Shown here in pieces: positions 7,434-33,175 of a stretch of 64,000 nt of DNA. The first letter of the stretch is position 1; every line of letters begins with the position of its first letter. The position numbers and the translations under genes are program-made. This DNA comes from Bradyrhizobium diazoefficiens (GTDB lineage Bacteria; Pseudomonadota; Alphaproteobacteria; Rhizobiales; Xanthobacteraceae), in contig NZ_CP067102.1 of the NCBI RefSeq assembly GCF_016616885.1, positions 4,988,501-5,052,500 of the forward strand, read 5' to 3'. The notes below the pieces were generated by a model. It did no database searches, had not been told where the DNA came from, and saw only the letters and a program-made list of their open reading frames with translations.

Positions 7434-7491
7434 CGTCATTGCGAGGAGCCAGCGACAAAATTGCGAAGCAATTTTGCGCTGGGCGACGAAG
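7434..7491. repeat. Left half of a palindromic repeat split by an IS110-type element
   Basis: Begins CGTCATTGCGAG and continues with GGAGCC and AATTTTGCGCTGG up to GACGAAG. It corresponds to the reverse complement of the intact copy at 16965-17081. The other half resumes at 9181, 1.69 kb away. Confidence 0.9.
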
Positions 7492-7567
7492 ATTCCATGG
7501 GGAGTGGATAGCGACCAGATCTGAGGCCAGACTGAGGTTGCTAAATCCATTCAACCTGGAGACGACG

Positions 7568-8734
7568 ATGTTGCTCGATCATCCTTCCGACGGACCGGCC
7601 GCTATCCGCACGCAGTTTGGCGCAATTTTTGTGTCATTGGAACTGAGCCGCTCGACATGGCTGGTGACCTCGCTGTCGCCCGGCAAGGGCGAGAAGATGT
7701 CCAGACACAGCGTGGAGGCCGGTGATATTGCGGCGCTCTTGAAGCTGTTTGCAGAGCTGAAGCAGAAGGCCCTGGCCCGAACGGGGGAGAACTATCCGAT
7801 CATCACCATCCAGGAGGCTGGACTGGATGGGTTCTGGCTTCACCGCGCTTTGCAGCAGGAGGGCATTGAAAGCCACGTGGTCGATCCGGCCTCGATCGCG
7901 ACGCCGCGCCGGCGCCGGCGGGCCAAGACGGACAGGCTCGATGGCGAGACGCTGCTGCGGTCGCTTCTGGCCTACAAGCGCGGCGAGCCGCGGGTCTGCG
8001 CGATGGTGGTTGCTCCTTCACCGGAGGACGAGGATCGCCGCCGACTTTGCCGCGAGCGGCGGACATTGATCGCGGAGCGGATCGAGCACGTCAACCGGAT
8101 CAAGGGGCTGCTGTTTGCACAAGGGATATCCGGCTATGTGCCGCTGCGGCGCGACCGCAAGGCACGGCTCGAGGCCTTGCGCACCGGGGACGGGCGCCCG
8201 TTGCCGCAGCATTTGAAGGCGCAGGTCGGCCGCGAGCTCGCCCGGCTCGAACTGCTGCTCGAGCAGATCGCGGCGGTGGAGCGCGAGCAAGAGGCGCTAC
8301 TGACGGCGAGCAAGCCAACCGGCGAGAAGGCTGCATCGGACCCGGTCACCATGCTGCTCGGCCTGAAGAGCCTGGGCCCGAACTTCGCTGCCGTTCTCTG
8401 GACGGAAGCCTTCTGGCGCCAGTTTGCCAACCGCCGCCAGGTCGCCTCCTATGCGGGGCTTGCGGCCACGCCATGGCGCAGCGGCGGTATCGAGCGCGAG
8501 CAGGGCGTGTCGAAGGCCGGCAATCCGCGGCTGAGAACCACGATGATCCAGCTCGCCTGGTTGTGGATACGCCACCAGCCCCAATCGGCTCTGACCCAAT
8601 GGTTCAAGGCCAACAGCCAGCGCGGCCGCAAGCGCGCGATCGTGGCGTTGGCGCGCAAGCTGCTGGTTGCCTTGTGGAAGTATGTCACCCAGGGCGTCGT
8701 GATCGAGGGGGCCGTGATGAAGCCTGCCGCCTGA
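7568..8734 (+). CDS. IS110-superfamily transposase (RNA-guided DEDD recombinase type)
   Basis: 388 residues from ATG 7568 (MLLDHPSDGP). The longer open frame back to 7439 crosses the IS end and the host repeat and is not credible as the start. The N-terminal RuvC-like DEDD domain shows FVSLELSRSTW, IQEAGLDGFWLHRAL, HVVDPASI and AKTDRLDGETL. The first acidic position is Glu rather than Asp. The C-terminal Tnp2 domain has LLGLKSLGPNFAAVLWTEAF, the catalytic-serine region YAGLAATPWRSGGIEREQG and VSKAGNPRLRTTMIQLAW. These enzymes recombine a circular donor with a target directed by an element-encoded RNA. The frame is intact, so the element may still be active. Confidence 0.93.
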   Translation: MLLDHPSDGPAAIRTQFGAIFVSLELSRSTWLVTSLSPGKGEKMSRHSVEAGDIAALLKLFAELKQKALARTGENYPIITIQEAGLDGFWLHRALQQEGIESHVVDPASIATPRRRRRAKTDRLDGETLLRSLLAYKRGEPRVCAMVVAPSPEDEDRRRLCRERRTLIAERIEHVNRIKGLLFAQGISGYVPLRRDRKARLEALRTGDGRPLPQHLKAQVGRELARLELLLEQIAAVEREQEALLTASKPTGEKAASDPVTMLLGLKSLGPNFAAVLWTEAFWRQFANRRQVASYAGLAATPWRSGGIEREQGVSKAGNPRLRTTMIQLAWLWIRHQPQSALTQWFKANSQRGRKRAIVALARKLLVALWKYVTQGVVIEGAVMKPAA

Positions 8735-8762
8735 GCCCTCTTCACCACCTCAAAACCAATCT

Positions 8763-9075
8763 GCCGAGGTCCGATCGAACCTCGGCCGATCCGGGTGGAC
8801 GAACCGATGGATTGCATGGCTTCAAACGCCGCAACGAAGAATGGCCTCGTCCTCTCGAGCCTGCCCGCCGCAAGCGGAATGTTGGTGCTGTCGCTATCAC
8901 GCGACGACCGAATGTGAGTTTGATCTGGCAAGCAAAACCAGATTGTCAAAACTGGCTCGAACCTGAGATCGCCTGACGACAAGGAGTTATCCGCCCGACC
9001 ACCAAAGCCTGATGGCGTGCTCGCTCAAGTCAAGGTCAAGCCGCTTCGCGGCGGCCCTACGGGCCGACCTTGACT
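8763..9075 (+). ncRNA. Candidate seek/bridge RNA region in the right end of the IS element
   Basis: This stretch has no plausible gene but is rich in perfect stems. GCCGAGGT/ACCTCGGC at 8763-8786 has an 8-nt loop. A bulged stem TTTG-ATCTGG/CCAGAT-CAAA spans 8919-8950. A three-way junction spans 9028-9075. Short matches to the element's own junctions also occur. TGGATTGC at 8808-8815 is the reverse complement of the right target flank. GCGACGA at 8901-8907 equals the left target flank, and ATGTGAG at 8912-8918 equals the right element end plus core. Known biology (seekRNA downstream of IS1111-type transposases) supports an RNA here; the exact ends and guides are inference. Confidence 0.5.
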
Positions 9076-9180
9076 CGATCTGCGCGCGCCATCCGAAAGG
9101 CCCCACGGTCGGGACGAAGAGCTGGCTGCAATCGAACAAAAAGCTGAACTACCACCTTGACACACCAAATCCCCATGTGA

Positions 9181-29642: not shown

Positions 29643-30818
29643 ATGGACGCCCGCACGTCGCAACCGACCCATCAGACCCATCAGCCTCCTGCGCGGGGCT
29701 GGCGCCCTGAGCGGTGCGACCGTGTCGCGCTGGTCTTGCAGGGCGGCGGCGCGCTCGGCGCCTACCAGGCCGGCGTCTACCAGGCGCTGCACGAGGCCGG
29801 CATCGAGCCCGACTGGGTCACCGGCGTCTCGATCGGCGCGATCAACTCCTCCATCATTGCCGGCAACAAGCCGGAGAAGCGGCTCGAGGCCTTGCGCATC
29901 TTCTGGGAGCGCATTACCAACCGCAAGATCTGGCACTACACGCCGGATGGCGACATCTTCCGCCAATGGCGCAACCTCTACAGCTCCTGGATGACGTCCG
30001 CGATGGGCCAGCCGGGCTTCTTCACCCCGCATCAGGTCAATCCCTGGCTCAGCCCGGTCGGCGCCCGGACCGCGACGAGCTATTACGACACGGCTGCACT
30101 TAAGGCGACCCTGCTCGAGCTCGTTGATTTCGACCTCATCAACGAGAAGAAGATCCGCTTCGCGGTCGGCGCGGTCAACGTGCTCTCAGGCAACTTCATC
30201 TATTTCGACAACGCCCATGACGAGATCGAACCGGAGCACATCATGGCCTCCGGCGCCCTGCCCCCGGCACTGCCGATGGTGCGGATCGGCACCGATCATT
30301 TCTGGGACGGCGGCATCGTCTCCAACACGCCGCTGCAGCATCTGCTGGACCAGGAGGACGCGCTCAATTCGCTGGTGTTCCAGGTCGACCTGTTCAGCGC
30401 GCGTGGCGTGCTGCCGCGATCGATCCAGGACGTGATGGCCCGCCACAAGGACATCATGTATTCCTCGCGCACCCGCCACAACACCGACGTCTATCGCCGC
30501 ACCCATAATCTCAAGGTGCTGCTCTACAAGGCGCTTGCAAAGATCCCGGACGAGCAATTGTCCGAGGAGGATCGTAGCCTCAAGGCTAGCCTGCGCAACA
30601 TGCCGGAGATCGCGATCCTGCATCTGATCTACCAGCAGAAGGCCTATGAGGGCGACGCCAAGGACCACGAGTTCTCAGGCACCTCGATGCGCGAGCACTG
30701 GACCTCTGGCTACGAGGACACCAAGCGAACGCTGAAGCGTCGCGACTGGATCAAGATGCCGGAGGAAGGCATGGGGCTCGTGGTGCACGACGTGCACCGG
30801 GAGACGGAGAGCGCGTAG
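29643..30818 (+). CDS. Patatin-like phospholipase with DUF3734 C-terminus
   Basis: 391 residues from ATG 29643 (MDARTSQPTHQTH), preceded by AGGAGG. The patatin fold has LQGGGALGAYQAGVYQALHEAG (oxyanion loop), the nucleophile in GVSIGAINSSI and the catalytic Asp in DGGIVSNTPLQHLL. The C-terminal third (RRTHNLKVLLYKAL to the end) is the DUF3734 extension found in proteobacterial patatins near PHB/acetoacetate genes. It hydrolyses lipid esters. Histidine repeats (QPTHQTHQPP) in the leader are low complexity. A repeat with an IS element follows 12 bp after the stop. Confidence 0.9.
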   Translation: MDARTSQPTHQTHQPPARGWRPERCDRVALVLQGGGALGAYQAGVYQALHEAGIEPDWVTGVSIGAINSSIIAGNKPEKRLEALRIFWERITNRKIWHYTPDGDIFRQWRNLYSSWMTSAMGQPGFFTPHQVNPWLSPVGARTATSYYDTAALKATLLELVDFDLINEKKIRFAVGAVNVLSGNFIYFDNAHDEIEPEHIMASGALPPALPMVRIGTDHFWDGGIVSNTPLQHLLDQEDALNSLVFQVDLFSARGVLPRSIQDVMARHKDIMYSSRTRHNTDVYRRTHNLKVLLYKALAKIPDEQLSEEDRSLKASLRNMPEIAILHLIYQQKAYEGDAKDHEFSGTSMREHWTSGYEDTKRTLKRRDWIKMPEEGMGLVVHDVHRETESA

Positions 30819-30830
30819 TTCTATCCTGCT

Positions 30831-30891
30831 CGTCATTGCGAGCGAAGCAATCGCAAGTAGCACGCGGCTACCTCCAGGTCGTCATTGCGAG
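30831..30891. repeat. Two GTCATTGCGAG repeat starts in tandem; the second is cut by an IS
   Basis: CGTCATTGCGAGCGAAGCAATC at 30831-30852 is a short copy. Its second neighbour CGTCATTGCGAG at 30880-30891 stops at the IS junction and resumes at 32446 with CGCAGCGAAGCAATCC. Confidence 0.85.
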
Positions 30892-31005
30892 TTGGGACCA
30901 GCATTGAGGGGCTGACGCGCGCTGGATGAAACTTTTCGGGGGTGGAGAGAGGCGGTAGATTGGGGCGCCGTCGGCAAAGAGGTCGATTACTCTCTGGTGC
31001 GTGAG

Positions 31006-31111
31006 AGCCCGGTTGCGAGTTGGACCCGGGTTGCCTGGATGACCCACACTGGCGCGGAGGGGCAACATGGCCCTGGAGCACGCTTCCTAGCATTCTTTTC
31101 TGACAGGCGCC
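31006..31111 (+). ncRNA. Candidate bridge RNA guide loops in the IS left end
   Basis: Two stem-loops lie upstream of the transposase. In the first, AGCCCGG (31006-31012) pairs with CCGGGTT (31026-31032, one G-U) and displays TTGCGAGTTGG (31013-31023), identical to the left junction at 30885-30895. In the second, GGC-CCTG (31069-31075) pairs with CAGG-C-GCC (31104-31111) and displays CTTCCTAGC (31083-31091), identical to the right junction at 32438-32446. Order (target-like loop first, donor-like loop second) agrees with the IS621 bridge RNA. Complementary right-hand guides were not convincingly found. The RNA's 5' end is undetermined. Confidence 0.55.
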
Positions 31112-31145
31112 TATGCCGCCGGCGCGAACTGTTGAGGAGAGCAGC

Positions 31146-32417
31146 ATGGATATTCTGTACGAGCGGGTGGCTGGCCTGGATGTGCACAAGGACACGGTCG
31201 TGGCCTGTGTGCGGATCATGGTCGACGGCAAGGCGCAGCGGGAGTGCCGGACCTTTGCAGCCGCGACTGAACAGCTTGGGGAGCTGCGAAGGTGGCTGGA
31301 AGAAAGCCGGTGCACGCATGTGGCGATGGAGGCGACGGGCGTCTACTGGATGCCAGTGTTCCGAATCCTGGGCGAAGGCGCCTTTGAACTGATCGTCGCC
31401 AATGCCGCGCACATCAAGAATGTGCCGGGACGCAAGACCGACATGAACGATGCGATGTGGATCGCCGATCTGTTGGCCTGCGGGCTGATCAAGGGCAGCT
31501 TCATTCCGGAGGAGGAGGTTCAGGAGTTGCGCGCGCTGACGCGGACGCGCAAGCAGCTGGTTCGCGAGCAGACGCGGCACGTGCAGCGGATCGAGAAGAC
31601 GCTGGCAGAAGCCAACATCAAGCTTGGCTCAGTGATCTCCGACATCATGGGCGCGAGCGGCCGGCGGATCATCCAGGCGATGATTGAGGGCGTGCGGCAG
31701 CCCAACAAGCTGGCCGAGCTAGCCGGCAAGCAGATCAAGGCCTCGCCGAAGGAGCTCTACGACGCGTTGCACGGGCGGCTGACGGATCACCACCGCTTTC
31801 TGCTCGCGCTTCATCTGCAGCAGCGGGATGGCCTGGATGAGACGATTCGCAAGCTTGATGTCGAAATCGCTCAGCGGATCGAGTGCATGGAAGCGGAGGT
31901 CAACGGTGGCAAGATCCCCTTTCGCCACTTGATCGGATTGTTGACCACCATTCCCGGGGTCAGCGCGGTGGCGGCGCCGGCCATTCTGTCCGAGATCGGC
32001 GCCGACATGAGCCGCTTCCAGACCGCTGGCCATCTCGTCGCCTGGACCGGACTGTGTCCCGGACAGAACGAGAGCGCCGGCAAGCGCAAGTCCTCGCGCC
32101 TGCGCAAGGGCGCGCCGTGGCTCAAGACGATGCTCATTCAATGTGCCTGGGCTGCCAAGCGCACAAAGAACAGCTACTACCGGGCGCAGTTCTTCCGCTT
32201 GCAGGCCAAGCGCGGGCCGCAAAAGGCTATCTGCGCCGTCGCTGCCTCGATCCTCACCGCAATCTACCACATCCTCAAAGACGGCACGGAGCACCGCGAC
32301 CTCGGCGCTGCTTACTTCGACCGCCGGCCCACGGAGGTCCAAGCAAGCCGCCTCGTCGCGCGCCTCAAAAAGCTGGGCTTCACCGTCCAACTCCAGCCCA
32401 TCGCGGAGGCCGCCTGA
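31146..32417 (+). CDS. IS110-family transposase (DEDD/Ser recombinase)
   Basis: 423 residues from ATG 31146 (MDILYERVAGLDVHKDTVV), preceded by GAGGAG. DEDD residues are visible in AGLDVHKDTV, AMEATGVYWMPVF and GRKTDMNDAMWIADLLA. A coiled middle region (RTRKQLVREQTRHVQRIEKTL) follows. The C-terminal Tnp2 domain has LTTIPGVSAVAAPAILSEIG and AWTGLCPGQNESAGKRKSSRLRKG with the candidate catalytic serine. The frame is intact. It shares only family-level resemblance with the transposase at 7.6 kb, so the two elements are independent arrivals. Confidence 0.93.
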   Translation: MDILYERVAGLDVHKDTVVACVRIMVDGKAQRECRTFAAATEQLGELRRWLEESRCTHVAMEATGVYWMPVFRILGEGAFELIVANAAHIKNVPGRKTDMNDAMWIADLLACGLIKGSFIPEEEVQELRALTRTRKQLVREQTRHVQRIEKTLAEANIKLGSVISDIMGASGRRIIQAMIEGVRQPNKLAELAGKQIKASPKELYDALHGRLTDHHRFLLALHLQQRDGLDETIRKLDVEIAQRIECMEAEVNGGKIPFRHLIGLLTTIPGVSAVAAPAILSEIGADMSRFQTAGHLVAWTGLCPGQNESAGKRKSSRLRKGAPWLKTMLIQCAWAAKRTKNSYYRAQFFRLQAKRGPQKAICAVAASILTAIYHILKDGTEHRDLGAAYFDRRPTEVQASRLVARLKKLGFTVQLQPIAEAA

Positions 32418-32445
32418 CGCTAAACCATCAGCCGTTTCTTCCTAG

Positions 32446-32514
32446 CGCAGCGAAGCAATCCAGAGTCCTTCCGCGGTGGCAGCCTGGATTGCTTCGCTTG
32501 CGCTCGCAATGACG
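32446..32514. repeat. Right part of the GTCATTGCGAG repeat disrupted by the second IS110-type element
   Basis: CGCAGCGAAGCAATCCAGAG, then CCTGGATTGCTTCG and CTCGCAATGACG. It completes the repeat begun at 30880-30891. Confidence 0.88.
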
Positions 32515-32519
32515 GTGTT

Positions 32520-33175
32520 TGACGCATCGTCACGTTCGATCAATTCGCGCTTTAGCCCGCAGACACACTTCCGCATTCTCGCGGCTCATACTGCCCGAGC
32601 TTTGCTCTCGTCTTCGCACCCTCTTGAAGCAAGGGCGCAGGGAAGGCCGGGCGCCGGCTGCACCCGCAGTCCCGTGTGCAAAAAAGACGCGCACGGGGTG
32701 GACGACAGGTGACGCCGGAACGCCCGGCCTTCCCTGCGCGAATGGTTTTACGGCTTATGTCGCGCTCTCCCCGGGGAGCGATGCACTATTGCCCCCGTCG
32801 CCTTGCGGATCACTGATGTGCGGATCCGGTTGGACCACACACATCACCACAAGACTTGACGCACAGACCCCGGGCGTCAGGACCACACGATTTTGCCGTC
32901 CGCGCACATCCCCGCTCCTCGCTCCGATGACTGGCGTGCGCTCGCCACCGAAGCCGAACGAAGACGCTGTCAGCGCCGTGTCGTGCCGCGCTCGCCCTGC
33001 TCACGGAGCACCATTGAAGGAGTTCCGCCCTGCAGCTTGAAATGCGCGCCGACGCAGTCGCGGCCACCGCCTCCCTGCCCGCGCCTCGTGACGATCGCGA
33101 AACGCCCCTTTGTGGCGGGCGGGATAAGCACAACCTACGCTATATCCGAAATTCGGTAAATAGGAATATTTTTGC
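32520..33175. repeat. Long gene-free repeat-like unit with a 19-bp inverted repeat
   Basis: No credible gene lies between the IS and 33448. A perfect 19-bp inverted repeat, GCGCAGGGAAGGCCGGGCG (32635-32653) and its complement (32721-32739), encloses a 67-nt segment. That segment has its own hairpin CCGTGTGC/GCGCACGG (one G-U). Open frames across the unit (32519-33040 plus, 33001-33381 minus) have arginine/proline-rich, frame-independent composition. I recall near-identical hypothetical ORFs in many copies in Bradyrhizobium, which points to a dispersed non-coding repeat. From 33176 to 33447 I see only AT-richer DNA likely to carry the next gene's promoter. Confidence 0.55.

Follow-up and report, generated by a model that had tools for sequence, protein, structure and literature searches.

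How does an insertion sequence whose non-coding left end carries copies of its own two junctions find its insertion site, and how are its guides laid out? These questions are raised by a locus of Bradyrhizobium diazoefficiens. The window, i.e., the whole stretch of 64,000 nucleotides analyzed (positions 4988501-5052500 of the 8.09-Mb chromosome), contains an IS110-family element of 1554 bp at 30892-32445, the right-hand core AG included; the element and its parts and flanks described here lie on the plus strand. Sequence comparison makes it very probable that the left end of this insertion sequence specifies a bridge RNA with guides in mirror order, and that insertion of the element at a CGTC-headed repeat is guided by this RNA.

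The ends of the element were determined by comparing 11 full copies at different sites. The copy search covered 146 genomes of the genus and revealed four copies with an identical protein in the own genome, three at 94% in genome G143 and one at 87% in a congener (G030), and a 71% sister element has three copies in the own genome. The left-end search demanded AG and the right-end search accepted AG or AC; with these settings, core AG stands at both junctions in 10 of the 11 copies, the exception being a sister copy (L128) with AC as its right-hand core. The junctions share this dinucleotide without target duplication beyond it, as in the IS110 family. In another sister copy (L127), the last ~31 bases are tandemly duplicated at the right end. 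The recombinase of 423 residues (31146-32417, stop included) matches NF033542 with 289 bits (cut-off 140) and both PF01548 and PF02371, with 100.7 and 82.1 bits, above their cut-offs, which is the DEDD recombinase combination of the IS110 family, and it matches the IS621 chain with an E value of 8.7e-12. The non-coding left end comprises 254 nt and the right end 28 nt with the core counted, so that the long non-coding region lies upstream of the transposase, as expected of the IS110 group. Judged by its protein and layout, the element is an IS110 member, as a first-pass annotation of the same DNA had proposed. No curated Rfam family matched 30700-32700 up to an E value of 1.

All 11 full copies are inserted in CGTCATTGCGAG, with the left end facing the CGTC head, which bears out the earlier claim of insertion at ATTGCG-AG of the repeat. 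In the window, the left target flank, TTGCG plus core AG (30885-30891), belongs to the left arm of a CGTC-headed repeat, and the right target flank (32446-32512) is the remainder of the repeat, ending in the opposite arm. The joined flanks form a CGTC-headed repeat with arms facing opposite ways, and uninterrupted repeats in the own genome and in congeners align across the junction (at least 25 of 41 genomes match); no orthologous empty site was found among the matches listed for the 41 genomes. The genome contains 255 occurrences of GTCATTGCGAG versus 2 of the reversed pattern. A second IS110-family element, at about 7491-9090 of the window, has six copies in the genome (L187-L192) and apparently a downstream non-coding region. 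A CGTCATTGCGAG arm lies directly left of three of the six copies, one copy occupies the right flank of L129, and CGTCATTGCGAG arms at 7436 and 9228 bracket the window copy.

The junction copies are exact and form unique pairs, as the first-pass annotation had stated. Within the window, TTGCGAGTTGG is confined to 30885-30895 and 31013-31023 (0.02 expected; 0 of 100 shuffles reached two), and CTTCCTAGC to 31083-31091 and 32438-32446 (0.11 expected; 0 of 100 shuffles). Both repeats are genuine and beyond chance, but their functional extents are shorter than the repeats. The target-matching part of the first copy in the left end is TTGCG plus AG (31013-31019); the TTGG after it is a separate feature, in which the two leading letters vary across relatives together with those at the start of the element's left end. 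Of the second repeat, the final C belongs to the target flank and lies outside the element, and the letter after loop 2 does not track the right flank (13 of 42 clusters; null 12.2). The left target guide, TTGCG plus core AG at 31013-31019, is the 3' guide of the target loop, and the left donor guide, TTCCT plus core AG at 31084-31090, the 3' guide of the donor loop. The corresponding left donor sequence, TTCCT plus core AG at the element's right end (32439-32445), was located by copy comparison and covariation.

For the comparison with relatives, 104 loci were put to the parser, and 13 without a recognized loop 1 (L040, L053, L073, L099, L101, L118, L145, L150 and L152-L156) were dropped, leaving 91. 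L126, L132 and L134, as duplicates or neighbours, had been excluded beforehand. For L078 and L105 the left-end data were not used, nor were the right-end data for L049 and L060; L115 and L117 stood outside the column scan, and L251 and L252 outside the analysis. For eight loci (L042-L045, L061, L064, L066 and L147), the left-end start was chosen manually from the end motif while the loops were visible, and the right flank of L127 was read after its duplicated right end. Strict E-value searches at family, class and phylum level gave 1, 2 and 1 genomes beyond the own, the phylum match being one of the class matches, and the family of G1158 gave 4 genomes beyond G1158 among 349 searched. In viral_contigs, the first query gave four loci and the second none, while the third and fourth led back to the four contigs of the first.

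Across the clade, both left guides covary with target and donor DNA. The first-pass annotation had named covariation of 31013-31019 with the target flank as its test, and the outcome was strongly positive: there are 38 different left target guides, and each of them follows its own flank from one fixed position within a conserved RNA frame that itself covaries. Loop 2 showed 7 mismatches, of which one (L056) is a parsing error. By these comparisons, the two segments are almost certainly left guides of a bridge RNA. The earlier placement of a guide-bearing RNA upstream of the transposase, with the target loop before the donor loop and with left guides carrying top-strand letters, agrees with this picture. 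Two observations on left guides in relatives were made in addition. A 41% relative (G1166; L242-L249) has eight copies at eight sites of one genome with only GCT plus core AA as common left letters, and its left guide is even shorter. Relatives with the left guide TTTGAGAG (L087, L089, L100, L103, L143, L144 and L149) all sit at the conserved site CTTGAGAG-AATG; the gene after the L149 copy is annotated as an IS3 family transposase.

The RNA frame was derived from 49 sequences, for which RNAalifold gave 15 pairs; a six-pair outer helix was added by inspection. Changes on both sides were found in 14 of these 21 pairs. Cells with both-side changes numbered 93 versus 26.6 in shuffled alignments (0 of 500 shuffles), and slid versions gave 20-26. 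The outer helix (30970-30975 with 31115-31120) is paired in 85.9% of cells, with both-side changes in 6/6 pairs, one of the six being broken in the window copy. The target loop has the form of an internal loop, with GGUC (30981-30984; 97.1% of cells paired) and GACC (31023-31026) as its closing stem and a hairpin at 30996-31009 as its cap, in which GGU (30996-30998) faces GCC (31007-31009); this cap is near-invariant and hence shows little covariation. A helix with strong covariation closes the donor loop (31028-31034 with 31106-31112; 6/7 pairs with both-side changes, 2/7 broken in the window copy), and its partners differ from the second stem drawn earlier at 31069-31111. The first hairpin of the first-pass annotation, CCCGG/CCGGG, was rejected because it behaves like shuffled sequence (62.0% of cells versus 61.9%) and is not conserved.

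Inside the target loop, the IS621-type layout assumed earlier was not found; the right guide lies 5' of the left one. Over the clade, the target loop contains a 5' guide, at 30986-30994 in the window, that is complementary to the core plus right flank on the top strand, significantly so across clusters and in a single register, that fixed by the core, in two separate halves. Matches of 4-5 letters occur in some elements (L052, L048, L104 and L087). Outside the test set, the right flanks of the eight G1166 copies are purine-rich by eye (18 of 24 letters at +1 to +3) and face a U-run of the RNA, which lends the right guide mild support, and in the five G1468 copies the upstream stretch did not match, in a comparison that leaves aside the G070 and G145 groups. 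At 31020-31021, putative handshake bases repeat the two letters with which the left end begins: the two bases after the left target guide equal these letters in 43 of 48 clusters, with a null of 29.7 and a maximum of 38 in 20,000. Among the 12 clusters that are not TT/TT, seven agree. By eye and outside the test set, G1166, L178, L180, L152, L154 and L156 agree and L155 fails, in a tally that leaves out L145 and L153. In the donor loop, a candidate right guide was placed at 31044-31050 by position; it ends in a CU-like core complement. A right-before-left guide order in the clade is well supported.

A number of results weigh against this reading. Folded on its own, the RNA sequence of the window copy does not outperform shuffled sequences (z +1.46; 184 of 200 did as well), and because of this and of the donor-helix and outer pairs broken in the window copy, the structure rests on comparison. 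Of the 43 clusters that agree in the handshake, 36 are TT/TT, and since the handshake letters are inherited together with the left end, shared descent inflates the agreement count. The first-pass annotation had reported no convincing right-hand guides; although the clade has a right target guide, that of the window copy is indeed poor, and the candidate right donor guide does not covary with the left end. Likewise, a donor-loop handshake with the right flank was not seen across clusters. Copies of the same element also have unrelated right flanks (L043-45, L070-72, L091-94 and G1468), as would be expected if the left guide alone picked the target and the variable upstream stretch echoed past targets, the right flank being irrelevant to insertion. 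We consider this explanation rather unlikely, because right-flank complementarity is significant across clusters and includes the 4-5-letter matches mentioned above.

The match to the right flank is modest at each position, 14.5 to 22 of 42 clusters (35-52%), and the opposite order is proven in an IS110-type element, ISEc21, in the experiments described for it (PMC11187229). The RNA might thus be an ordinary IS621-type bridge RNA with its left guide before the right, the upstream signal being accidental and the true right guide too short to see. However, an accidental signal would hardly keep to one register set by the core in two separate halves, none of the leading hits of a blind column scan was a top-strand signal on the 3' side of the left guide, and the AG core and the side of the handshake fit the reversed order. 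This layout is therefore very improbable for the clade. Short exact repeats near element ends can also exist without function, as remnants of slippage or earlier insertions, but such an origin without a guide role is already contradicted by the 38 left target guides that track their own flanks, and deserves almost no credence.

We therefore return to the mirror-order bridge RNA. The left target guide repeats the left target flank plus core and so can pair with the bottom strand, and the donor-loop 3' guide repeats the element's right end plus core. The target loop therefore runs from right guide through hairpin to left guide, opposite to the order in IS621, and the core is AG. An excised circle would be inserted into the CGTC repeat at ATTGCG-AG by RNA-guided recombination. 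The core is AA in relatives at 39-41%, i.e., TT on the bottom strand, where the AG core reads CT; this fits the near-invariant T and less strict C of IS621. The guide endings, the handshake on the left end and the bottom-strand CT or TT would all follow if RNA and recombinase worked as in IS621, with the RNA grammar kept but mirrored relative to the element's ends. By analogy, we predict that the bottom strands are exchanged first. It is on balance probable that the long-recombinase IS110 clade as a whole has mirrored bridge RNAs, with a 5' guide reading the flank beyond the far end, bottom strands (CT core) cut and exchanged first and a handshake on the left junction.

The CGTC-tagged repetitive extragenic palindromic (REP) repeats previously listed in Bradyrhizobium (PMC3733652) share with the target the CGTC head and opposite-facing arms. 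Their associations with transposase genes are few and fortuitous in that paper's account, whereas here 7/7 full copies of two sister elements in one genome lie inside the repeat.

As described in the accounts of IS621 drawn on here (PMC11208160, PMC11208158), the element resembles IS621 in its DEDD recombinase, its REP-type target, an RNA in the left end with target loop before donor loop, and a core within each guide. The target loop of IS621 consists of a left guide (A50-U58), a hairpin, a right guide (G77-G80) and two handshake bases, which pair with the donor once exchange has taken place (PMC11208158), and in two IS621-type elements we found by eye a left guide ending in CCU, later GUAG and then AU. 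The RNA described here likewise has a guide ending in CU, a hairpin, a guide ending in AG and two bases, but its first guide reads the right flank and its second the left. Both left guides and the right target guide covary with their DNA as in IS621, and the putative handshake bases again come after the target-loop 3' guide, here with the left end as their mirrored partner. The left target guide is not 5' of the right one, however, and the top-strand core is AG (AA in some distant relatives) instead of CT. The left target guide has 5+2 letters compared with 9 in all in IS621, and the recombinase 423 residues compared with 328 in the PDB chain.

The seekRNA study (PMC11187229) tested one IS110-type element, ISEc21, and stated that guide order is reversed between families. 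ISEc21 has the non-coding region upstream of the transposase and an RNA matching both target strands, as here, but its top-strand match lies 3' of the bottom-strand match, and the transposases of its cluster have 345-385 residues. The IS1111-type seekRNAs (ISEc11, ISPa11 and ISKpn4) have the top-strand match 5' of the bottom-strand match, as found here, but their non-coding region is downstream of the transposase. They also have recognizable subterminal inverted repeats, of 7-17 bp in the IS1111 group; in the clade studied here we saw by eye G(T/C)TTC and ATGAA(A/G)C, at distances that do not match. Both of these partly inverse motifs are conserved in the clade: the first adjoins the donor guide at the right end, and the second stands ~40 nt from the left end, within the element. 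The same study places IS110 itself in a subgroup with transposases of 395-455 residues, which by length would hold the window element and from which its experiments apparently included no member. By title and abstract we found no prior description of such a guide order, in a search with few subscription papers and with bioRxiv outside it; the order might already be present among six further elements of Durrant and co-workers (Extended Data Fig. 10).

Bridge recombinases are under development as tools for programmable insertion, and few elements underlie the rules published so far. In the published layouts, IS621 and ISEc21 have the RNA upstream and the left guide first, and the IS1111 types have the RNA downstream and the right guide first. 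The clade studied here would combine an upstream RNA with a right guide placed first and an AG core, so that guide order could not be deduced from RNA position, and if its members were reprogrammed according to the IS621 layout, the guides would end up on the wrong sides. The clade provides 38 naturally occurring left target guides, each with its target, and a clear prediction on the first-exchanged strand, and mirror-order guides would widen the rules for RNA-guided DNA insertion. If the reading is true, RNA location and guide order are independent traits, and the clade represents the missing combination between the IS110 and IS1111 types.
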